From the NCBI RefSeq assembly GCF_900112065.1, contig NZ_FOKE01000003.1:566249-630248 (forward strand): DNA of 64,000 bases, in the 5' to 3' direction. Made by a program: the position numbers and the translations under genes. Below, piece after piece: positions 27,385-61,638 of the stretch. Positions within the stretch are counted from its first letter, which is position 1. Each line of letters begins with the position of its first letter. The notes under the pieces are model-generated. The model had not been told where the DNA came from. It did not search any database and saw only the letters and a list, made by a program, of their open reading frames with translations. Source of the stretch: Cohnella sp. OV330 (GTDB taxonomy: Bacteria > Bacillota > Bacilli > Paenibacillales > Paenibacillaceae).

Positions 27385-30300
27385 TTACCGCGTCACGACG
27401 GCCAGCGTCGCGGAGCGCGCCGCAAGGCGGAGGGTCAGCTTGCCGTCCTCGCCGACCGCCTTCGTGCCTGCCGCGGACAGCCGTGTGGCTGCGTCGAAGC
27501 GGTACATCTCGGCCGAGCCGGAGCCGGCGGCATCGCCGAGACCGACGTTGACTTCACGGGTGACGGTGTCCTTGTTGAACAGCAGCACGTACAGCTTGCC
27601 GTCCGATCCGTCGATCGCGTAGGAGCCGACGGCGTCCGGCAGGCTCGAGACGGCGCGTACCGAGTCTCCGCGAATTTGCGAGCCGTTGCCGTCGTAGTCG
27701 AGATACAGCTTAAACGCGTCTTCGAGCGGCGTGCCTGCCGGCAGCGTGCCGAAGCGGGTGGCGAGGTCGAGCCCCTCGCGTCCGAAGATCGCGAGCGCCT
27801 CCGCCTGCGCGACCCCGGCGCTAATGCCGTTGCCGTTGCCGAAGTTGTACTCGGTCAGCGCGAGCTTCGTGCCCGGCAGCCTGCTGTCGATGATCTCCTT
27901 CATGCGGGGGATCAGCCGGATCGGCTCCTGGATCCACGAGTCGTCCACGTAATCCGGATCGTACAGCGCCTTCAGACCCTGGAATCGGCGTTTGACCGTA
28001 CCTGGCCCTTCATCGGCATCCGGCACGCCGGCCGATTGCGAGTAGTAGTGAATGTCCAGGTAGTCCACGAGCCGCTGCCCGTCATGCGAGGCGGCGTAGT
28101 CGGCCACCTGCTGGAGATACCATTCCAGGAACGGCGTATTGCCGTGCGCCGCGCGGTCCGGCCCTTCGGCGCAAACGTCGGCGGAAGAGTAAAAGTACGC
28201 GCACCAGCCCCAAGAGGTCGGTCCGAACACTTTGGCCGTAGGATCCTTGGCCTTGATCGCGGCGCCGTATTTCTGCGTGAAGCCCCAGAGCTCGTCGTAA
28301 GTCGGCGCTTGCGGATGAACGTCGCGATGGGTCGAGTTCCAGATTTCCGGCTCGTTGTCCAGCGCGTAATAGTTCACGGCGTTTCCGCTGTCCTTCAGAT
28401 GCTGCATCCAGTCGGTCACGAACGTCGGCCCGATCGCCTTGGAAGTGTCCTTCGGATCGTTGCCTGTTACGTACGAGCCGTCCTTCTTCACGCCGTTGCC
28501 GGCGTCTTTGACGTCGTCCGCGACGCTTTCCTGGGCGCCGTATTTCTTGACGGAGAAACCGTATCGGATCTCGCGGTCCTTCGGCGTCCACCCGATCGTC
28601 GGGACGGTCAGCAGCACCTTGCCGCCTTGCGCGTTCACGCTGGAGATGAGTTGATCCGTCACCGAGCTGTTCGGTTCCTCGCGCGGATCTTTTTCGTAAG
28701 GATAGTTGATGTAGTACCAATCGTTCGCGCGGTTGGCTACATTAAGCTGCCAATTGTAGCGCGTCGTGTTGTTGCCGCCCCAGCGCTGCACGGGGAACGG
28801 CAAGGTCGACTGCGTCGGATGCATGTCGTCGTAGTTGATGCCGTAAATCTCCGGATTGATCGGCTTGCGATCCGCCGATGTATCGACATTTACGCTGAGC
28901 TGCGGCAACCGGGGCTCGGGCAGTTCGCCCGCATGCAAGTTGCGCAGCAGGGACACGTCGTCGATGTACACGACGCCTTGGTCGCGATCGGTAGCCGCCT
29001 GAAAAATGAGGCCGTCGAAGCTGCCCGCGGACAAACCGAGGTCGGCCATGCTGACCGTTATTTCGGTCCATTGTCCGGTAGGCAATCCGCCTTCGGGCAG
29101 ATAGTCGTTCAGGTCGATCGCGCCGATGCCGGCGTCGCCGTCGTACGCATGGACGAGCAGCTGCTGTCCGCCGGTCGCGCCGCCGTGAATCCAGAAGCGC
29201 ACGCCGTAATATTGCTCGATGTCGAACTTGCCGTCGTGCGACAGCCATACGCCGTCCCAGCCGCTCGGGTTGAACTTAATCGACTTGGCGCCGCCGTGGA
29301 CCTGCTCGGTATTGGCCAAGTCCTTGTCGTGCCAGCTGTAGTTGCGGAAGCCGTCAGCCAGCGCGTCGCCGTAGACCGGTTCGGCGGCCACTTCCGTCAC
29401 CTGCACGTAAGCTTCGGTCGAGAACGTCTTGTAGGTCGCCGTCACCTTCGCGATGCCCGGCGAGATGCCCTTGATGGCGCCGCCGTCCAGCTGCAGCACG
29501 TCGGGGCGGTCGACCGTCCAGGTCACGCCGTCGGTTAACGTCTTCGTGTCGCCGCCGGCATAGTAGGCTTCCGCCGCGAGCGCATTGTTCTCGCCCGGCA
29601 GCATCACCGTGCGCGGCTTGTCGATCCGAAGCTCCGCGATCTGCGCCGAAGCGACGAACTTCTTGAGCAGCGCGATATCGTCGAGATAGGCTGCCGGCTG
29701 GACGCCGTTCGTCGCGCCCTGCAGCAGGATGCCGTCGAAGATGGCGCCCGGCAAATTCAGATCCGTCAGATTAATCGTGACCTCGCTCCACGTACCTGCC
29801 GCGATGCCGCCCGGCACGAGCGCATCCAGATCCAGCTCTGCCACCGGCGAGCCGCCTTGCGTCAGCTTCAAGCTGAATTGCTGGCCGCCCGTATCGCCGC
29901 CGTTCACCCACAGCCGCAACTTGTCGTAGGTTCGGGCGTTGACCGGCATGCCGCTGTACAAGTACAAGCCCTTGTCGCCGTCCGGTTCGAGCCTGATCGA
30001 CGTTTGCCCCGTGCGAACGGTATCCGACTCCGCCAGATCGTGCGAGATGCCGCTATAGTCCGCGAAGTCGCCGCTCAGCGCATCGGCATAGACATAGTCG
30101 CCGTCGATCTCTTCGATCGGACCGGCCGGCGCACCTTCGACGACGGTCACGTCGATCTGCGCTTCGAAGCCCTCATAAGCGGCGCGGAGCGTCGTCGTAC
30201 CGGGATGCAGGCCGGAGACGAGGCCGTTCGCTACCGTAGCGATCGAAGCGTCGTCCGTCGACCATGCGACGCCGGTCGTTACCGGCGCGGACGAACCGTC

Positions 30301-30993
30301 CGCGCGCACGGCGTTCAGGCCGGCAGGGCGAAGGCCGCCCTCGCGAAGCGTCAATATATTTTGCGAGAAGACGATGCCGGTCACCTCGGCTTGACCGGGA
30401 TCCTCCTCGCCCGGTTCCTCGCCCGTTCCGGCGCCTTCGCCTTCGAAGCGCATATCGTCCAGATAGAAGGGCTCCTGTTCGCCGGCGCCCCAGACCCAGA
30501 TGCCGTCGACGATTCCGCGGACGCCGTAGTCCGCCAGCTTCACGGATACTTTAGTCCAAGCGCCGCCTGGGATGCCGCCCGGCAGAAGCGCCGTCGAGGG
30601 GATTTCCGCGACCGCCTGTCCGCCCAGCGAGAATACGAGCTTGAAAGCCTGGCCGCCGGCTGCGCCGCCGTTCGCCCAGAAGCTGAATCGGCCGTAGTCG
30701 TCCGCGCTCATGATTCGATCCTTGTAAAAGTAGAGTGCTTGCCCTTCGTCTGCGTCCAGCTGGATGGAACGCGTACCCGAATGAACGGTGCCGGCTTCGG
30801 CGAGATCGGATTGCGCCCAGCCATAATCGGCGAATTCCGCCGACAGCGAGTCGTCGTAGACGGTTAAAATGCGTTCCGTATCCCCGTAAGACTTGGCCGG
30901 ACCGACCGCGAGCTGCCCCAGCAGCACGGCGGATGCCAGGACGGCCGTCAGCGGCTTGCCCCAGGGCAGCTTCCTCCTGCTTGTTGTTTCCAT
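27385..30993 (-). CDS. Secreted multidomain GH44 endoglucanase/xyloglucanase
   Basis: About 1202 residues. A signal peptide (about 1-38) is followed by three jelly-roll carbohydrate-binding-like domains (about 45-190, 300-455, 555-700), each with an F-WANGG/LWVNGG/FWIHGG core, separated by two BIG2-type Ig domains (about 205-285, 460-550). The GH44 catalytic domain starts near 715 (INPEIYGINYDDMHP, RWGGNNTTRYNW). The acid/base Glu lies in LDNEPEIW (about 880) and the nucleophile in LALTEYNFG (about 1047); a beta domain ends the protein. It hydrolyses beta-1,4-glucans outside the cell. The start could be ATG at 30993 or TTG at 30999, both after GGGGAGGAG. It is divergent from a two-component regulator at 31252. 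Confidence 0.92.
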   Translation of the reverse strand: METTSRRKLPWGKPLTAVLASAVLLGQLAVGPAKSYGDTERILTVYDDSLSAEFADYGWAQSDLAEAGTVHSGTRSIQLDADEGQALYFYKDRIMSADDYGRFSFWANGGAAGGQAFKLVFSLGGQAVAEIPSTALLPGGIPGGAWTKVSVKLADYGVRGIVDGIWVWGAGEQEPFYLDDMRFEGEGAGTGEEPGEEDPGQAEVTGIVFSQNILTLREGGLRPAGLNAVRADGSSAPVTTGVAWSTDDASIATVANGLVSGLHPGTTTLRAAYEGFEAQIDVTVVEGAPAGPIEEIDGDYVYADALSGDFADYSGISHDLAESDTVRTGQTSIRLEPDGDKGLYLYSGMPVNARTYDKLRLWVNGGDTGGQQFSLKLTQGGSPVAELDLDALVPGGIAAGTWSEVTINLTDLNLPGAIFDGILLQGATNGVQPAAYLDDIALLKKFVASAQIAELRIDKPRTVMLPGENNALAAEAYYAGGDTKTLTDGVTWTVDRPDVLQLDGGAIKGISPGIAKVTATYKTFSTEAYVQVTEVAAEPVYGDALADGFRNYSWHDKDLANTEQVHGGAKSIKFNPSGWDGVWLSHDGKFDIEQYYGVRFWIHGGATGGQQLLVHAYDGDAGIGAIDLNDYLPEGGLPTGQWTEITVSMADLGLSAGSFDGLIFQAATDRDQGVVYIDDVSLLRNLHAGELPEPRLPQLSVNVDTSADRKPINPEIYGINYDDMHPTQSTLPFPVQRWGGNNTTRYNWQLNVANRANDWYYINYPYEKDPREEPNSSVTDQLISSVNAQGGKVLLTVPTIGWTPKDREIRYGFSVKKYGAQESVADDVKDAGNGVKKDGSYVTGNDPKDTSKAIGPTFVTDWMQHLKDSGNAVNYYALDNEPEIWNSTHRDVHPQAPTYDELWGFTQKYGAAIKAKDPTAKVFGPTSWGWCAYFYSSADVCAEGPDRAAHGNTPFLEWYLQQVADYAASHDGQRLVDYLDIHYYSQSAGVPDADEGPGTVKRRFQGLKALYDPDYVDDSWIQEPIRLIPRMKEIIDSRLPGTKLALTEYNFGNGNGISAGVAQAEALAIFGREGLDLATRFGTLPAGTPLEDAFKLYLDYDGNGSQIRGDSVRAVSSLPDAVGSYAIDGSDGKLYVLLFNKDTVTREVNVGLGDAAGSGSAEMYRFDAATRLSAAGTKAVGEDGKLTLRLAARSATLAVVTR

Positions 30994-31070
30994 CGTCAAT
31001 ATTTCTCCTCCCCGGAATTCCTGATCGATCGATCCTTACCAGCTTAATGAAGGCGGCCGTAATCCCGCCA

Positions 31071-31160
31071 GTGACGGTCTGTCACGACTATCGGTCATCT
31101 CTGTCATGTGACATGGACCATTTGGCCTATGACGCGAACGCTTCGGTCATGTATCGGTCA
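31071..31160. promoter_or_regulatory. Cluster of inverted and direct repeats, candidate binding sites of the NarL-type regulator
   Basis: Two dyads occur in the GH44/regulator intergenic region: GTGACGGTCTGTCAC (31071-31085) and TGTCATGTGACA (31102-31113). TCGGTCA occurs three times in direct orientation (31091, 31143, 31154). The GTCA/TGAC core resembles sites of NarL/DesR-type regulators, and the adjacent gene encodes one. Control of both divergent genes is inferred. Confidence 0.5.
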
Positions 31161-31251
31161 CTGCTTTGTCCGCGGCTCTATTCGCTCGTCGGGGCGTCTG
31201 CTAGAATCAGGGGAGAACGGGTAGCGTACTCAGAGAACGGGGGCAAACATC

Positions 31252-31914
31252 ATGGTCCGAATCGTCATCGCGGACGATCAGCGGCTGATGCGCGAGGGCC
31301 TGCAGACGATACTGCAGCTGGAGGACGACATGGAGGTCGTCTGCACGGCGGAGAACGGGAGAGAAGCGTACGAGGCGGCAGGCATCCACCGGCCGCATAT
31401 CGTGTTGATGGACATCAAGATGCCTGTCATGGACGGCATAGAGTCGTTGAAGCTGATCAAGCGCGATTATCCCAAGACGATCGTGCTCATCCTTACGACA
31501 TTCGCGGAGGACAAATACATCGTAGGCGCGATGGCCGGCGGCGCGGACGGCTTTCTGCTCAAGGATATCGCCGCCGAACGCGTCGTCCAGACGGTACGGG
31601 ACGCGATGGTGGGCGAGCTGATGCTGCCTCCCGCGATCGCGGCCAAGCTCGCGTCCCGGCTCACGGCGAACGATTCGTACGATTTCGACGAAGCCAAGCT
31701 TCAAGGGATGGGACTCTATTTTACGGAGCGCGAGCGCAAGATTATCCTGCTGTTGATCGAAGGTTATTCGAACAAGCAGATCGCGGTCACGCTTTTTATG
31801 AGCGAAGGTACGGTGCGGAACTACGTCAGCGTCATATACGGCAAGATCGGCACCAACGACCGACGCGCCGCCGTCGGGATCATGAAGGAGCTGCTGCTGA
31901 GTGACTACCGCTGA
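31252..31914 (+). CDS. NarL/FixJ-type response regulator
   Basis: 220 residues. A receiver domain (1-120) has Asp8/Asp9, phospho-acceptor Asp54 (VLMDIKMP), a conserved Thr in ILTTFAEDKY, and Lys in LLKDIAAERV. The C-terminal LuxR-type helix-turn-helix (FTERERKIILLLIEGYSNKQIAV...EGTVRNYVS) binds DNA. Its last codons overlap the GTG start of the hybrid kinase, so regulator and kinase are one operon. The likely target is the divergent GH44 gene and its own promoter. Confidence 0.93.
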   Translation: MVRIVIADDQRLMREGLQTILQLEDDMEVVCTAENGREAYEAAGIHRPHIVLMDIKMPVMDGIESLKLIKRDYPKTIVLILTTFAEDKYIVGAMAGGADGFLLKDIAAERVVQTVRDAMVGELMLPPAIAAKLASRLTANDSYDFDEAKLQGMGLYFTERERKIILLLIEGYSNKQIAVTLFMSEGTVRNYVSVIYGKIGTNDRRAAVGIMKELLLSDYR

Positions 31915-34900
31915 ACGAAGGTTTCCCTTTCCGCTGAAGGCCGCTTTGCTGCTCGCGTTTACGCTGCTTTCTTTGTTTCTGCCGCTTTTCTTTAAAGGCT
32001 CTCATGCCGAGTCGGAAGGCTCCGTCCTTGCGTCTTACCGGGAAAAATGGCAGGTGCGGTGGAGCGACGGAGACGCGAGCGGAACTGAGGGCTGGCGGCC
32101 TTTGAACGCGGCGGAGTTGGCGCGCTTCGCCCAGTATAAAGGCGTCGTCTGGCTGAGGAGGGACATGCCCAAGCTGCTGACGGACGATCCGCACGTGATG
32201 CTGCTGTACGGAAGGTCTTTCGAGGCATACGAGAACGGGCGTCTTCTGGTGAGCTACAATATGAGCCATCCGGATCCGTACGTGAACCACTACATTCCGG
32301 CGCGCATCGTCAAGCTGTCGCAGGGCGACCAGCCGCGAACGCTGGCTTTTAAGCTGTTGTGGAACCGGAACTCCATGCCGCAGGACTGGAGCGTGGTAGG
32401 CGACCGCCGCATGCTGGATCGGCTGATCGTGCAAAACGATTTTGTGCCCGCCGTTTTCAGCGTGCTTCTGACGGCCGCGTCCGCGGTTTCGCTGCTCGTT
32501 TTCCTGCGCCGGCGATCGGAGACGCTGTACGCCTGGTTTGCCCTCATTACCGGCTGCGCGGGAATCGGTTTCTTCTCGATGCTGATGTCCTTGCGGTTCT
32601 TTTTGGATTTGCCGGTCGCGCATTTTCAATATTTCAGAGATTTGCTCATCCCGATCGGCGTGCTGGGCTTCGTCTGTTTTTACGGCAGAGCCCTGCGCGG
32701 CTTGTACGTGAGAATGTACCGGATCATGGCAGTCTGCGTGCTGCTGTACACGGTTTTTACCGCCTGCTTGGCATCTATAGATAGTCATTTGTACGAAAAA
32801 GCGATCTTCGAATGGTCGCCGATACTCGTGATTCCCGTGTTCGTCCTGATGAGCTTCTCGCTGATCCGGAGCAGGCATATGCTGGCGCTGAAGGATGTCG
32901 AAGAATTCAGATGGTTGACGTTCGGCTTCGTCGCGTTGACGGTCGGCATGTCCTTCTATTTCTTTTCGGCAAACGCGCTGCGCTTCTTCGGCTCCAGCTT
33001 GGAGGGCGTGCTGCCGATATGGCTGTATTACGCGCTGACGTTCGCGCTCGAGATCGGCCTGCTCCTCTTCGTTGGCTGCCTGCTGATGGTCGTGCTCGGA
33101 CGATTCTCGGGCGTGTACCGGGACCTGCAGCGCAACGCAGCCGAGTTGGAGACGGCAAACCGGGAACTGGAGACGCTGTCTCGTCTAAAAGACGATTTCC
33201 TGAGCCATACCTCCCATGAGCTGCGCACGCCGCTTCATGGCATTGCCGGGCTGGCGGATGCGCTGCTGGACGGCGCTGCGGGACCTGTCGGCCAGGAGAT
33301 GGAGCGCAATCTGCGGCTCGTCCGCGGCAGCGCTGACCGGCTGCTGCACTTGGTGAACGACATCCTCGATATGGATCGGCTAAGACACGGCGATATGAAG
33401 CTGAAGCTAACCGCAGTGGACGCATTGGGCGCATGCGAAACGGTTGCTGCGGCGCTCGCCCCGCTGGCGAGGCGCAAAGGGCTCCAGTTGACGGTAGAGC
33501 GAGAAGATACGGTGGTTAAAGGCGACAAGCTGATCGTCAGCGCCGACTCGGGCAGACTGGAGCAGATCCTGTACAACCTGATCGGCAATGCCATCCGCTA
33601 TACCGAGTCGGGCTACGTCCGGGTGACGGCCGCCCGGGAGGGCGAGAGCGTTCGCATCGTCGTGGCGGATAGCGGGCCGGGCATCCCGGAGGACCGCGCG
33701 GCAGAATTGTTCGAGCCGTTCGCGACCGCTTCGTCCGACTATGGCGGCGGCATGGGGCTCGGCCTGCCCATCACCAATCGAATGGTTCGCTTGCACGGCG
33801 GCGAGTTGACGATCGATTCCAAGATCGGAGCGGGCACGACGCTGTCGTTCGCGCTGCCAGCCGCGGGCGCCGAGGTCAAGCAGGCGAGCGACGTTGTGAC
33901 CGGGAGCGGCACGGGTTCATTCGGCAATCTTGGCGAAAATGAAGAGCCAAGCACGGCCGCGCTGCCGGTGCTGCCCGCGAATCTGGACAGATTGGGCGAG
34001 GGATACGCGCAGAGTGCATTCGATGAACGAGGACGGGAGGCCGGAGAAAAAAGGCGGCCGCTGATTCTGGTTGCCGATGACGAACCGGTCAACCTCGAAG
34101 TTCTGCGGCATTATTTGCGGCGGAGCGGCTACCGTCTGGTCGAGGCGGCGAACGGTACGGAAGCGGCTTTGATCCTGGAGCAGGGCGAGAAGCCGGACCT
34201 GCTTCTGTTAGACGCCATGATGCCGGGCAAGACCGGATATGAGGTATGCCGCATCGCGCGCGAACGGTGGTCTGCGAGCGAGCTTCCGATCATTTTGCTG
34301 TCCGCGCAAAACCGATTGGACCGGCTGACGCTCGGCTTCGATTCGGGCGCGAACGATTATCTGTCCAAGCCGTTCACCCAGGGCGAGCTGCTCGCGAGGG
34401 TGGATATCCAGCTCAAACTGGCGCAGTTCCACCACTCCCTCGAAGAACTGGTCCGCACGCGGACAGAGGAGCTGGAGGCGGCGAACCGCCATCTCGCAGG
34501 CTCGGTCCGGGAGACGGCAGAGGCGCTGGCTGAGGTGTCCGTGCTTGAGGAACGCAACCGGATCGCGCACGATATGCACGATCTGGTCGGACACTCGCTC
34601 ACGGCCGCCATCGTGCAGATCGAAGCGGCCAAGAAGCTGGCGGACCGCGATCTGCCGCGTTCCGTCGAGCGGATGAATGCCGCTGGCGAGATGATTCGGA
34701 AAGGCTTAAACGACGTTAGGCGGACGGTCCGGATGTTGAAGGACGACGAGGCGGGCTTCGATTTGCCCGTTGCCCTTCAAGAGCTGATTCGGGAGAGCGC
34801 GGGGCAGGCGGACGTCTTTTTCGAATACAATCCCGAGCCGCTGCCGCAAATGGGCGGACTGGCGCAGAAAGTCGTCTATCACGCATTGATGGAGGGAATA

Positions 34901-35167
34901 ACAAATGGCCTCCGTCATGGGCGATGCAGCCGGTTCCGCTTCGAGCTCACAGAGGAAAAAGGCTGGTTGAGGTTCGAACTTGTCAGCAACGGAGAGCCTT
35001 ATGGGGCTTCGAAGCCCGGCTTCGGACTCAGTGCTATGATGGAGCGCGTCCATTTGCTGAGCGGCACCGTAACCATAGGCGAAGCAGCGCCGGGCATCGG
35101 CTGCAGGTTGCGCATCATGTTGCCGCTGGAGGATACCGACGAACGGCTGCCGGAGCTGCCAGCCTAG
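31901..35167 (+). CDS. Hybrid sensor kinase with two kinase cores (7TM - HisKA/HATPase - REC - HisKA_3/HATPase)
   Basis: 1088 residues from a GTG start with AAGGAG upstream. An N-terminal helix and extracellular domain (about 35-180) resemble 7TMR-DISMED2, followed by seven membrane segments (about 185-400) and a short coiled coil. The first kinase is of the HisKA type, with His439 in SHTSHELRTPLHG and an ATPase domain with N, G1 (DSGPGIPEDRA) and G2 (GGGMGLGLP) boxes. A receiver follows with phospho-acceptor Asp771 (LLLLDAMMPGK). A second kinase of the HisKA_3/NarX type has His893 (RIAHDMHDLVGHS) and its own ATPase region. Two complete kinase modules from different families in one chain are unusual. 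The NarL-type partner upstream should be phosphorylated by the C-terminal module. Confidence 0.92.
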   Translation: MTTAERRFPFPLKAALLLAFTLLSLFLPLFFKGSHAESEGSVLASYREKWQVRWSDGDASGTEGWRPLNAAELARFAQYKGVVWLRRDMPKLLTDDPHVMLLYGRSFEAYENGRLLVSYNMSHPDPYVNHYIPARIVKLSQGDQPRTLAFKLLWNRNSMPQDWSVVGDRRMLDRLIVQNDFVPAVFSVLLTAASAVSLLVFLRRRSETLYAWFALITGCAGIGFFSMLMSLRFFLDLPVAHFQYFRDLLIPIGVLGFVCFYGRALRGLYVRMYRIMAVCVLLYTVFTACLASIDSHLYEKAIFEWSPILVIPVFVLMSFSLIRSRHMLALKDVEEFRWLTFGFVALTVGMSFYFFSANALRFFGSSLEGVLPIWLYYALTFALEIGLLLFVGCLLMVVLGRFSGVYRDLQRNAAELETANRELETLSRLKDDFLSHTSHELRTPLHGIAGLADALLDGAAGPVGQEMERNLRLVRGSADRLLHLVNDILDMDRLRHGDMKLKLTAVDALGACETVAAALAPLARRKGLQLTVEREDTVVKGDKLIVSADSGRLEQILYNLIGNAIRYTESGYVRVTAAREGESVRIVVADSGPGIPEDRAAELFEPFATASSDYGGGMGLGLPITNRMVRLHGGELTIDSKIGAGTTLSFALPAAGAEVKQASDVVTGSGTGSFGNLGENEEPSTAALPVLPANLDRLGEGYAQSAFDERGREAGEKRRPLILVADDEPVNLEVLRHYLRRSGYRLVEAANGTEAALILEQGEKPDLLLLDAMMPGKTGYEVCRIARERWSASELPIILLSAQNRLDRLTLGFDSGANDYLSKPFTQGELLARVDIQLKLAQFHHSLEELVRTRTEELEAANRHLAGSVRETAEALAEVSVLEERNRIAHDMHDLVGHSLTAAIVQIEAAKKLADRDLPRSVERMNAAGEMIRKGLNDVRRTVRMLKDDEAGFDLPVALQELIRESAGQADVFFEYNPEPLPQMGGLAQKVVYHALMEGITNGLRHGRCSRFRFELTEEKGWLRFELVSNGEPYGASKPGFGLSAMMERVHLLSGTVTIGEAAPGIGCRLRIMLPLEDTDERLPELPA

Positions 35168-35632: not shown

Positions 35633-36580
35633 CTAACCCGCACGTCGGCCGCTGCACGCAGGACGCCTGTACGCCCATGGAATCTGGCGAATGCTGGAGC
35701 GGGAGCCTACCAATCTTCGATAGGTGATGGTCTTCGTCGTGCCGCAGCAGGCGATGAGCTCGGCGAGCATGTCGTTGCGGCACAGGAGGCGGCGGAAGCA
35801 AAATTCGTTCAGGTACGCCTGCAGATGCTTCGGGCCGATCCCGCCGAACGTCCAAGTGAGCCAGCGAACGGCTTCCCGCCAGGCGACATGCAGCGCGGTT
35901 TGCCCCCGGTGGCCGCGCTCCAGCCGTTCCGCGCGATCGTCCGCGTCTCCGCCGGCGACGTGTTTTTGCACGAAACGTTCGGCCGCTTCCTCGCCGCCCG
36001 CCCCTCCGCGCCTTGCCGTATCGTCTCCTTCCGGCCCGTCGACGGCTTTCATTTTGAGATGAACGATATCGCCAGCGCCGTCAAGCGAAGCGCCGACGAC
36101 GATCGGTTGCGGCTTAAGTCCTTGCTGCACGATGAGGCTGCCGAGATAGCGATGGTATTCATAGCCGTAATACTCGCCGAGCAGCTGCAGATCGCCTTCG
36201 AGCGGCCGCTCGCGGTCCCACTCGCCGATGGCGTGACGGAGCTTGTGGTTGATTAGCCAAGCCGTCTTGTAGGTCACGTCGATCAGCTCGGCCAGTAGCC
36301 GTGCGCTGATGCCGATCTGCATCAAGAACATCGCCTGGAACCACTTCGTGAGCGGCGTGCGCGAGCCCTCGAGCACCGTGCCTGCCGTCAGAGAGGCCTG
36401 GTGGGAGCAGGAACGGCACTCAAAAAGCCGGCGCCCGCGCGAGGACACTTCGTAATAATGCGGATGGCCGCAACGCGGACAGCGGAAGCCGTCCGGCCAC
36501 TTGGCGGCGAAAAGCGCATGCTCGCAATCGGCCGTGCTGAAGGCAGGCACAGAGTCCCGAATCGAAAAGCGGCTTGGCAT
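35633..36580 (-). CDS. IS1595-like transposase
   Basis: 315 residues from the ATG at 36580, preceded by GGAGGG. The N-terminal zinc ribbon (WPDGFRCPRCGHPHYY and FECRSCSH) and a helix-turn-helix (ARLLAELIDVTYKTAWLINHKLRHA) are typical of IS1595/ISXO2-type transposases, as is the C-terminal block FGGIGPKHLQAYLNEFCFRRL. The usual first catalytic Asp motif (D-D/E-x-Y/F-F-G) is not recognisable; LEGDLQLLGEYYGYEYH stands in its place. No inverted repeats or target duplication were found around it. It is therefore either an immobile remnant or a gene kept for another role. Confidence 0.75.
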   Translation of the reverse strand: MPSRFSIRDSVPAFSTADCEHALFAAKWPDGFRCPRCGHPHYYEVSSRGRRLFECRSCSHQASLTAGTVLEGSRTPLTKWFQAMFLMQIGISARLLAELIDVTYKTAWLINHKLRHAIGEWDRERPLEGDLQLLGEYYGYEYHRYLGSLIVQQGLKPQPIVVGASLDGAGDIVHLKMKAVDGPEGDDTARRGGAGGEEAAERFVQKHVAGGDADDRAERLERGHRGQTALHVAWREAVRWLTWTFGGIGPKHLQAYLNEFCFRRLLCRNDMLAELIACCGTTKTITYRRLVGSRSSIRQIPWAYRRPACSGRRAG

Positions 36581-36596
36581 ACCAAACCCTCCAGAT

Positions 36597-36640
36597 CGAA
36601 CATTTGTTCTTATTTTAGCAAAAGATGGATTGCCTTGCAA
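36597..36640 (-). promoter_or_regulatory. Promoter with LexA/DinR-like box, upstream of the transposase gene
   Basis: On the minus strand TTGCAA (36640-36635), 17 bases, TAAAAT (36617-36612) form a good sigma-A promoter. Just downstream, AGAACAAATGTTCG (36610-36597) matches the Bacillus DinR/LexA consensus CGAACRNRYGTTYG at all but its first base. It covers the expected transcription start, so a repressor bound there would block initiation. Confidence 0.6.
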
Positions 36641-36900
36641 ATATATATTTGAAAAAAGCAGCATCGCGCGGATGGCGGTCATCGGAAGGGTGACGACAGT
36701 GAATAGACATGAAGGAGTGCCCAAATTTAAATAGAAGGGCCAGAGGCAAACTCGAGGGACCTCTGTTCCTGATCGAAGGGGATATCGTTAAAACGGGAGG
36801 AACGCGTGTATGTAGGTGGGGGTCTGTATAAATTTGTAAACTGGAATGGAACCTGGCGAGCGCCCACTTGGACAATCCCGCCGTTGTCCCCTCCAAGGCT
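36641..36900. other. Intergenic stretch with no recognised feature
   Basis: Between the transposase promoter and the end of the coiled-coil gene I see no convincing gene, repeat or hairpin. A GGGAGG followed by GTG/ATG near 36795-36810 leads only into a frame antisense to the next gene and is not used. Confidence 0.5.
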
Positions 36901-59841: not shown

Positions 59842-59869
59842 TTTGCATCCGGCCGGATTAGGCTACAAT
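59842..59869 (+). promoter_or_regulatory. Promoter of desKR
   Basis: TTTGCA, 16 bases, TACAAT, starting right after the des stop. It would allow desKR expression apart from the cold-induced des transcript. Confidence 0.5.
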
Positions 59870-59905
59870 GAGAGGACGACGAACAACGAGGGAGGAGCGG
59901 GGTCC

Positions 59906-61042
59906 GTGCAAAAGTGGTATCACATTTTCCAGCGGAGCACGGGGCTCAGCCCGTATATATGGGTCGTCTTTTACATCCTCCCTTTTTATTTCGTGTTCCG
60001 CTCCTCGACGATGTACCACGCGCTGATCGGCATTTTTATGATCGTCGCGTTTTTTGTTTGTTATTTGCTATCGTTCAGTTCGAAGGGCTGGCTCGTTTAT
60101 TTTTGGACCTCCGTGCAAATTTTATTTTCGATCGCGATGACGATGATGTTCGGATACGTCTATTTTTCCATTTTTACCGCCTTTTTCATCGGCAATATGC
60201 AGCGGAAGGCCGGCTTCATCACGCTGTACACGGTCCATTTGGCGATGACGCTGCTGTCGGTCTACGTCGGCTATATGCATGCCAACGCGGTGTTGATCGA
60301 GCAGGCGCCGTTCGTGTTCGTCTGCCTGATCGCGGCGACGCTGCTGCCGGTAACGACCTACAACCGCAACAAAAGCGAGCTCCTGCAGGGAGAACTCAAC
60401 GACGCGAACAAGCGGATCTCCGAGCTCGTGAAGCTGGAGGAGCGCCAGCGCATCGCGCGGGACCTGCACGACACGCTCGGGCAGAAGCTCGCCCTGATCG
60501 GGCTCAAGAGCGATCTGATCGCCAAGCTGATCCGCAAAAACCCGGACCGGGCGGAAGCCGAAATCGACGACGTCCGGCATACGGCCCGCAACGTGCTTAA
60601 GGAGCTTCGGGAACTGGTGACGCAAATGCGCGGCACGCACGTGGAGGAAGAGATCTTCCGCCTGCGGCAGATTCTGATGGCGGCGGACATCGAATTCACG
60701 TTGACGGGCGATCCGAAGCTGGCGAATACTTCGCTGCTCAACGAGAACGTGGCGTGCATGTGCCTCAAGGAAGCCGTGACAAACATCGTCAAGCACAGCA
60801 GGGCTACCGCCTGCGCCATCGAGATCGAGCAGACGGCGGCCGAGCTGCGCATCCGCGTGCGGGACAACGGCGTAGGTCTCGGCACCGGCGCATCCTTTCA
60901 TAGAGGGAACGGGCTTCGGGGAATGAAGGAAAGGCTTGAATTCGTGAACGGGTCTCTGGAGATCGCGTCGCGGGAAGGTACGGAGGTCGTCATCAAGGTG
61001 CCGAACATCTTGATTCAGGCGAAAGGGGAGGCGCAGCCATGA
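59906..61042 (+). CDS. desK: Membrane thermosensor histidine kinase DesK
   Basis: 378 residues from a GTG after GGGAGGAG. The N-terminal part has about five membrane helices (about 20-165), as in DesK, whose bilayer thickness sensing controls activity. The HisKA_3 dimerisation helix holds the phospho-acceptor His188 (RIARDLHDTLGQKL), and the ATPase core follows (EAVTNIVKHS N-box, RDNGVGLG). B. subtilis DesK is 370 residues. The stop overlaps the desR start. Confidence 0.92.
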   Translation: MQKWYHIFQRSTGLSPYIWVVFYILPFYFVFRSSTMYHALIGIFMIVAFFVCYLLSFSSKGWLVYFWTSVQILFSIAMTMMFGYVYFSIFTAFFIGNMQRKAGFITLYTVHLAMTLLSVYVGYMHANAVLIEQAPFVFVCLIAATLLPVTTYNRNKSELLQGELNDANKRISELVKLEERQRIARDLHDTLGQKLALIGLKSDLIAKLIRKNPDRAEAEIDDVRHTARNVLKELRELVTQMRGTHVEEEIFRLRQILMAADIEFTLTGDPKLANTSLLNENVACMCLKEAVTNIVKHSRATACAIEIEQTAAELRIRVRDNGVGLGTGASFHRGNGLRGMKERLEFVNGSLEIASREGTEVVIKVPNILIQAKGEAQP

Positions 61043-61638
61043 TTCGAATCGTCATCGCCGAAGACCAGCGGCTGCTGCTCGGCGCGCTGGCGTCCGTGCT
61101 CGATCTCGAGGAAGACATGGAGGTAGTCGGCAAGGCGGAGAACGGCGTGGAAGCGCTGCGGCTCGTCAAGCTCTATCAGCCGGACCTGTGCGTCATGGAC
61201 ATCGAGATGCCGCTCAAGAGCGGATTGGAGGCCGCGGAGGAGCTGAAGGGCTCCGGGTGCAAAATCGTCATCCTGACCACGTTCGCCCGGGCGGGCTACT
61301 TCGAGCGGGCGGTGAAGGCGGGCGCGCACGGCTACCTGCTCAAGGACAGCCCGAGCGACGAGCTGGCCGATTCCCTGCGGACGATCATGTCAGGCCGCCG
61401 AATCTACGCCGCCGAGCTGGTCGACGAAGCGTACAACGAAGAAAACCCGCTCACGGAGCGGGAAAAAGAAGTTATCGGATTGATGGCCGACGGCAAAAAC
61501 ACGAAGGAAATCGCGAGCGAGCTGTTTCTGTCGAACGGCACCGTCCGCAACTATATCTCCGTCATCCTCGACAAGCTCGACGTCAGCAACCGGATCGAGG
61601 CGATCAAGCGGTTCAGGGAGAAGGGCTGGTTCAAGTGA
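61039..61638 (+). CDS. desR: Response regulator DesR
   Basis: 199 residues, the same length as B. subtilis DesR. The receiver domain has phospho-acceptor Asp54 (LCVMDIEMP), a conserved Thr in ILTTFARAGY and Lys in LLKDSPSDEL. The LuxR-type helix-turn-helix (LTEREKEVIGLMADGKNTKEIA...GTVRNYIS) binds the repeats upstream of des. The expected role is activation of des in the cold and feedback when the membrane is fluid. Confidence 0.93.
   Translation: MIRIVIAEDQRLLLGALASVLDLEEDMEVVGKAENGVEALRLVKLYQPDLCVMDIEMPLKSGLEAAEELKGSGCKIVILTTFARAGYFERAVKAGAHGYLLKDSPSDELADSLRTIMSGRRIYAAELVDEAYNEENPLTEREKEVIGLMADGKNTKEIASELFLSNGTVRNYISVILDKLDVSNRIEAIKRFREKGWFK

Follow-up and report, generated by a model that had tools for sequence, protein, structure and literature searches.

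The window analysed here is a stretch of 64,000 nucleotides from the soil bacterium Cohnella sp. OV330 (contig NZ_FOKE01000003.1, positions 566,249 to 630,248 of the forward strand), and it carries a gene for a hybrid sensor kinase in which two kinase cores flank one receiver within a single chain. The gene is an uninterrupted reading frame of 1088 residues with zero internal stops, and it is read here as probably encoding a single-chain kinase cascade in which the receiver switches the second kinase (a rough probability of 0.6). The regulator gene adjoining it and the parts of the chain, with the first core called kinase 1 and the second kinase 2, are as follows.

31252..31914, plus strand: NarL-type response regulator (receiver and GerE), D54 assigned by sequence, overlapping the start of the kinase gene by 14 nucleotides
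31901..35167, plus strand: hybrid sensor kinase gene, 1088 residues, GTG start, AAGGAG 10 nucleotides upstream
31901..33124, plus strand: N-terminal sensor, from structure model and Pfam
33188..33391, plus strand: HisKA of kinase 1, H439 codon at 33215-33217
33545..33862, plus strand: HATPase of kinase 1, with N, G1, F and G2 boxes read by eye
33863..34060, plus strand: loose linker from kinase 1 to the receiver, variable in length, with the lowest identity among six segments in three comparisons
34064..34402, plus strand: receiver, D771 codon at 34211-34213, K823
34379..34639, plus strand: modelled continuous helix (residues 827-913), from receiver helix α5 through a coil into the HisKA_3 helix
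34550..34747, plus strand: HisKA_3 of kinase 2, H893 codon at 34577-34579
34871..35131, plus strand: HATPase of kinase 2, N and G2 boxes present, Asp of the G1 box replaced (S1029-N1030-G1031)

The coordinates, the frame and the three phospho-residues given in a preliminary description of this DNA were confirmed by translation and by motifs, H439 lying in HELRTPL, D771 in LDAMMP and H893 in HDMHDLVGH. Pfam analysis of the whole protein revealed HisKA (E 1.7e-17, residues 430-497), HATPase_c (E 2.1e-33, two stretches, the best at 549-654), Response_reg (E 1.2e-24, 722-834) and HisKA_3 (E 6.7e-17, 884-949), in agreement with the earlier claim of two cores of different families with an intact receiver between them. 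The order is of the TodS type, the second HATPase being slightly below the cut-off. The structure model of the sensor places a first transmembrane helix or signal at residues 10-30, a β-rich part at about 40-168 and helices resembling 7TMR-DISM at 169-405; the 7TMR-DISM_7TM profile (PF07695) scored 27.0 bits in the window protein against a cut-off of 29, and 43.4 bits in one relative (L051; relatives are designated by locus). With a limit of E 0.1, the Pfam scan of the kinase protein detected no PAS domain, nor did it find an extra input domain ahead of kinase 2. The NarL-type partner, which had also been described, is encoded by the overlapping regulator gene.

The spacing of these parts was compared among relatives. 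Profiles built for this work and applied to the fetched loci gave 56 distinct sequences, the window protein among them, with kinase 1, receiver and kinase 2. The distance from the receiver Lys to the His of kinase 2 is 70 residues in 47 sequences (K823 to H893 in the window protein), 63 in seven and 98 in one, 55 of the 56 having been measured as the pattern missed L152. The end of the sensor profile precedes the first His by 38 residues in 39/39 measured rows, taken from 41 rows without the window (the first His box of L223, HELRMPL, was missed by the pattern, and L233 had no sensor hit). The linker between kinase 1 and the receiver ranges from 39 to 130 residues over 41 rows. In short forms, relatives in which the sensor profile is joined directly to kinase 2 without kinase 1 and receiver, the distance from the end of the sensor profile to the His of kinase 2 is 75 (n=12), 68 (n=1) or 61 (n=2), and 61 additionally in L153. 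Since the spacings are 70, 63 and 98, 38, and 75, 68 and 61, the coils differ by multiples of seven.

The ratio of nonsynonymous to synonymous substitution rates (dN/dS) of the window gene, calculated against L039, L040 and L042, respectively, is lowest of the six segments each time in the coil between receiver and kinase 2 (residues 835-879; 0.01, 0.03 and 0.04). The values are 0.09, 0.06 and 0.14 for kinase 2, 0.06, 0.09 and 0.27 for the receiver, 0.11, 0.11 and 0.22 for kinase 1, 0.13, 0.29 and 0.26 for the sensor and 0.32, 0.26 and 0.56 for the loose linker; with synonymous sites close to saturation and segment borders chosen by the authors, it is the ranking that counts and not the values.

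An AlphaFold2 model of the receiver and kinase 2 from 58 aligned rows (mean predicted local distance difference test score, pLDDT, 83.8; predicted template modelling score, pTM, 0.47) shows residues 827-913 as a single helix, with a pLDDT of 66-92 in blocks of ten residues. Foldseek search with this model retrieved LvrB first (8vc9; E 3e-16, TM score 0.30, root-mean-square deviation 29 Å) and DesK second; on the model, the match to LvrB covers parts and not the whole shape. In LvrB, a helical coil forms when the receiver is phosphorylated and the catalytic domain is released; receiver-controlled kinases show a strong preference for helix lengths that are multiples of seven (PMC13269768). The features of the LvrB kind found here are a receiver directly N-terminal to the dimerisation-phosphotransfer and catalytic domains (DHp-CA), a connecting helix that is continuous in the 58-row model, and a helix length that varies in steps of seven within the family (55/56 measured). 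The cascade is favoured because the helix between receiver and kinase 2 keeps its length in sevens, is the most constrained of the six segments, is modelled as one helix and has LvrB as its best structural match. Control of kinase 2 by the receiver, as proposed in the preliminary description, would thus fit the predicted coil geometry, the conserved length and the strong constraint.

In the proposed scheme the seven-transmembrane sensor would switch kinase 1 through a coil of fixed length, and kinase 1 would phosphorylate H439, from which the group would move to D771 of the receiver across the loose linker. The receiver pair of a presumed dimer would then rearrange, and the one continuous helix would toggle kinase 2 from a kinase to a phosphatase state and back, comparable to LvrB. 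Kinase 2 would phosphorylate H893 with fresh ATP and hand the group on to the NarL-type regulator; a possible target of this regulator is the divergent GH44 gene described below. Sequence provides the parts and their conservation, the spacing along the helix and the relatives joining sensor to kinase 2, whereas each phosphotransfer step, the dimerisation, the sign of the receiver's control and the target gene are postulated.

Several observations weigh against such a cascade. In the 58-row model the pLDDT is down to 66-67 halfway along the helix, in a part that includes H893, while a full-length AlphaFold model (18 rows, pLDDT 70.7, pTM 0.45) interrupts the helix at 866-868 and falls below 50 at 864-901; both models are monomers. 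Hydrophobicity along the coil has its strongest period at 3.6 and not 3.5 residues, a mark of a helix but no clear mark of a heptad coil. Proteins with other receivers ahead of kinase 2 are spaced at 65, 69, 69, 69, 78 and 78 residues, and hence the phase is not maintained across receiver kinds. ATP use by kinase 2 could be weak, given the absent Asp of its G1 box. A same-strand regulator adjoins 36 of 41 relatives (35 upstream and one downstream; for L050, a short frame, at 728 bp), leaving five without one alongside (L045, L224, L225, L226 and L232, with one on the opposite strand in L226). Among known proteins, the phosphorylated receiver of the kinase ExsG has an inhibiting and not an activating effect on it (PMC3899027), and the sign of control may therefore be either. 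TodS, with a like order of kinase, receiver and kinase, is a demonstrated relay (PMC4321377, PMC3018481).

A one-chain phosphorelay as in TodS would run from H439 through D771 and H893 to D54 of the regulator, with kinase 2 acting mainly as a phosphotransfer domain, with or without autokinase activity. This is unlikely, though a serious contender, and the cascade is favoured over it. The domain order with a separate regulator matches TodS/TodT, where the relay was demonstrated, and the second transmitter of the Myxococcus Red system accepts phosphoryl groups from a receiver, seemingly without autophosphorylation (PMC4321377, PMC3018481). The conserved His of kinase 2 (kept in 54 of the 56 sequences, replaced in one, and in L152 missed by the pattern but evident from the letters) and the absence of the G1 Asp would also suit a phosphotransfer role. 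Against this, a long helix of conserved length separates the receiver from H893; the 59 residues from the receiver end (834) to H893 would span about 90 Å if straight, placing D771 too far from H893 of the same dimer unless the helix is bent. Moreover, relatives with the same kinase 2 and no receiver have no donor in the chain, yet show the same G1 change, and TodS has a PAS domain between its receiver and second kinase, while there is none in the window protein. Cascade and relay could also coexist.

The claim of two complete cores held for kinase 1, whose boxes can be read by eye, and in part for kinase 2, which retains the N box (EGITN) and the G2 box (GFGL) but has Ser in place of the G1-box Asp. 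With the kinase 2 fragment alone, Pfam gave 66.5 bits for HisKA_3, well over the cut-off, and 25.2 bits for HATPase against a cut-off of 26.4 (E 2.3e-5, profile positions 5-110 of 111). The best match of the single fragment in the PDB is DesK (E 5e-14), and a receiver-kinase 2 profile matched DesK at E 1e-28. The G1 Asp is present in 1/42 two-kinase rows (L223), in 0/15 rows joining sensor to kinase 2 and in 0/6 rows joining receiver to kinase 2, as compared to 8/8 rows of an outlying group, STK; the G1 box of L233 is NDG, a pattern search having misread that row. A dead second core was considered on account of the absent Asp and was judged less likely, though not refuted: relatives with kinase 2 as the sole kinase of the chain show the identical change, and it is therefore no marker of death in the two-kinase proteins. 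L053 (genome G027) is the sole long form seen with the phospho-His of kinase 2 replaced (HDMPD); it also has HELRTQQ after its first His, and it reads as an inactive or error-bearing copy. Relatives of kinase 2 with the canonical G1 Asp occur at L159-L166. Most of these lie in frames some 1700 residues long, and each has an adjacent NarL-type regulator hit; the one scanned (L161, a 383-residue frame) has a GAF domain.

The short forms comprise 15 distinct sequences of 624-692 residues in the trees (a first list gave 12, with duplicates counted), and 13 of the 15 are preceded by a same-strand regulator, which was not found for L206 and L212. As the seven-transmembrane sensor here joins the same coil and kinase 2, the sole kinase of the chain, the input of kinase 2 in short forms arrives via the coil. 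In five aligned pairs, the first part of the short-form linker resembles the long-form coil from sensor to kinase 1, and its second part the coil from receiver to kinase 2. The dispensability of the kinase 1-receiver layer, entirely missing in these proteins, together with the inhibition of ExsG by its phosphorylated receiver (PMC3899027), would also be compatible with a receiver acting as phosphate sink or off-switch, kinase 2 being driven mainly by another input that kinase 1 and receiver merely damp. This is improbable, for the constant 38 residues between sensor and first His point to a sensor coupled to kinase 1, and Pfam found no other input domain ahead of kinase 2.

Trees were built from rows that exclude same-place duplicates and the broken copies L056, L057, L060 and L071. 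The label of long or short form requires a minimum of 4 changes on the kinase 2 tree and 5 on the sensor tree, and a single clade of all short forms was rejected on both (approximately unbiased, AU, p 2e-35 and 9e-46, respectively), as well as on the sensor tree without the long-branch row L198 (p 0.002). Both trees place L206 as sister to the long form L066 and L197 as sister to the L063 group, and since these placements agree, the layer changed in place at L206 and L197. The placement of L198 differs between the sensor and kinase 2 trees, and it may represent a shuffled chain. The tree of kinase 1 plus receiver is weak at depth, with some long forms intermixed with other hybrid kinases. Taken together, the relatives show repeated addition or removal of the kinase 1-receiver layer, while the type of sensor before it and the type of output kinase after it stayed the same.

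Kinase 1 with its receiver may thereby constitute a natural plug-in cassette, inserted or excised at least four times with the coil kept in length steps of seven, which would make a cascade of two kinases in one chain out of a one-step sensor, with no phosphoryl transfer from kinase 1 to the regulator. This is put forward tentatively, at somewhat short of even odds. Why cells should add signalling layers is hard to test, as other features usually change too. Here matched forms with and without the middle layer have related sensors, output kinases and regulators, several sharing a GH44 neighbour, and what the extra kinase contributes (gain, delay, noise, threshold) can be tested directly.

Kinase 2 was also found behind other receivers. 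At L201-L204 a receiver, YesN-like by eye, is fused to a HisKA_3 kinase of the same type, each directly after a kinase-sized gene, in which PF06580 (the LytS/YesM kind) was found in all three scanned (L201, L202 and L204) of the four loci; by sequence, the arrangement is a two-kinase chain in split form. A GH44 gene lies some 2 kb away at L203 and L204. A further, weaker receiver precedes kinase 2 at L072 and L073 (L205 being the same place as L073), with a long hybrid kinase gene upstream. One and the same output kinase thus follows several receivers that differ from one another, an argument that it is under receiver control. The three genes at L072 and L073 form a chain from a long hybrid kinase with a terminal second ATPase core to a receiver-HisKA_3 kinase and a NarL-type regulator, and L155, L157 and L168 resemble it.

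Single frames of at least 1000 residues occur in 40 of the 56 distinct sequences besides the window; 14 were available as stretches too short for the whole sensor, and L050 as a 930-residue frame. As a proxy for the number of genomes with this architecture, a count that the preliminary description had called for, long frames over receiver and kinase 2 were counted; they occur in 14/37 genomes of the genus sample (930-1111-residue frames over receiver and kinase 2; some match at 1e-40 in 25/37) and in 35/296 of the order sample, own genome counted (frames of at least 1043 residues over receiver and kinase 2; a match at 1e-85 in 43/296). Two overlapping phylum samples (398 and 299 genomes, few of this order; 1e-75 and 1e-40) gave a match to receiver and kinase 2 in the own genome only, where no second match spanning both was found besides the window locus. 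In each genome the surveys scored just a handful of top candidates from a permissive first pass, and a missing match thus does not prove absence. Among the close named relatives in the receiver-kinase 2 part, Cohnella rhizosphaerae, whose copy is broken, reaches 96% in the best segment, and Cohnella sp. JJ-181 reaches 92%. A plasmid search with kinase 2 gave 204 records by sequence match, all below 60% identity, the top at 33.5%.

The possibility that a frame error or assembly artefact fused two genes draws on two Cohnella genomes in which the gene lies in pieces. Since relatives carry long intact frames, it is refuted and its residual chance is negligible: besides the order-wide frames, 17 further long relatives (930-1106 residues) stand within one alignment, and dN/dS is low on each side of the joint. 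The gene is accordingly single, as described earlier. The broken close copies, each in several frames, lie in G009 (C8 1850500-1859500, L057) and G023 (C6 519500-527500, L056), and either assembly error or true decay may account for them; G009 has an additional long intact paralogue of 1102 residues and G023 an additional copy with a short frame of 930 residues.

Upstream of the regulator lie a divergent gene and a candidate operator.

27385..30999, minus strand: glycoside hydrolase of the GH44 type, carrying Big_2 domains and a candidate for the target
31103..31112, no strand assigned: palindrome GTCATGTGAC in the divergent intergenic region, candidate operator on weak evidence

The hydrolase matches PF12891 at E 2e-65 and is EpsB-like by NCBIfam at 362 bits, far below the model cut-off of 1250. 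A GH44 homologue lies divergently upstream in 8/41 long-form and 5/15 short-form relatives, and on the same strand downstream in the short form L213; these are lower bounds, the upstream flanks being of unequal extent and several matches ending at the stretch edge. The match extends into the catalytic part in L059, L061, L063, L070 and L074. The GH44 neighbour can thus be common to long and short forms, while many other relatives carry different neighbours, and sensing of plant polysaccharides is a fair guess at the role. GTCATGTGAC occurs with at most one mismatch in 8/50 regions upstream of regulators, those of the window and seven relatives, as compared to 0.8% of shuffles (a crude shuffle); two of the eight regions are near copies, and the window with its close relatives accounts for five. 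Several TGAC/GTCA half-sites lie at 31000-31251, between hydrolase and regulator. Directly downstream of the kinase, on the opposite strand (35633-36724), is an IS1595-type transposase that is apparently partial (zinc-ribbon match, DDE below cut-off), and 59843-61638 holds, by sequence similarity, a second HisKA_3-type kinase of 399 residues followed by a regulator gene.

Literature searches on this architecture, which covered open-access literature and the terms used, found no study of this family; a search pairing GH44 with two-component systems and Paenibacillus gave two papers on xyloglucan. The chain is not unprecedented, for the order of kinase, receiver and kinase is already known and counted. 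In TodS a PAS domain separates the receiver from the second kinase, and each core is HisKA; the window protein, with no PAS and a HisKA_3 second core, is not a TodS orthologue on these marks. Like TodS/TodT of Pseudomonas putida, and TmoS, in which a transmitter-receiver-transmitter protein was demonstrated to feed a separate DNA-binding regulator (PMC4321377, PMC3018481), it has a separate regulator gene beside it. TodS is without transmembrane regions and has two PAS domains (PMC4321377), whereas the window protein has a seven-transmembrane sensor, no second sensor, and a HisKA_3 kinase coupled to the receiver by a length-conserved helix. A census of 2015 lists 373 HK1RRHK2 proteins in its Table 3, of which 97 are from Firmicutes and 69 of those have a neighbouring regulator; this count likely includes the present family, which has the same domain order, and the consulted parts of the census give neither core families nor mechanism (PMC4558063).

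The closest PDB sequence match of kinase 2, DesK of Bacillus subtilis, is not known to have a receiver, and its G1 box reads DD as compared to SN in the window protein. LvrA of Leptospira is likewise a kinase-receiver-kinase protein (PMC5863495). In LvrB of Leptospira, as in the present model, helix α5 of the receiver continues into the kinase core; LvrB, however, is a stand-alone protein with LvrC as its output, whereas the output here is a NarL-type regulator, and the term HisKA_3 is absent from the main text of the LvrB paper (PMC13269768). If the cascade is true, it would extend the switching principle of LvrB to a HisKA_3 core in a membrane hybrid sensor. As far as seen, what is new relative to these systems is the combination of mixed HisKA and HisKA_3 cores with a coil whose length is kept in steps of seven, together with a kinase 1-receiver layer that was gained or lost repeatedly.

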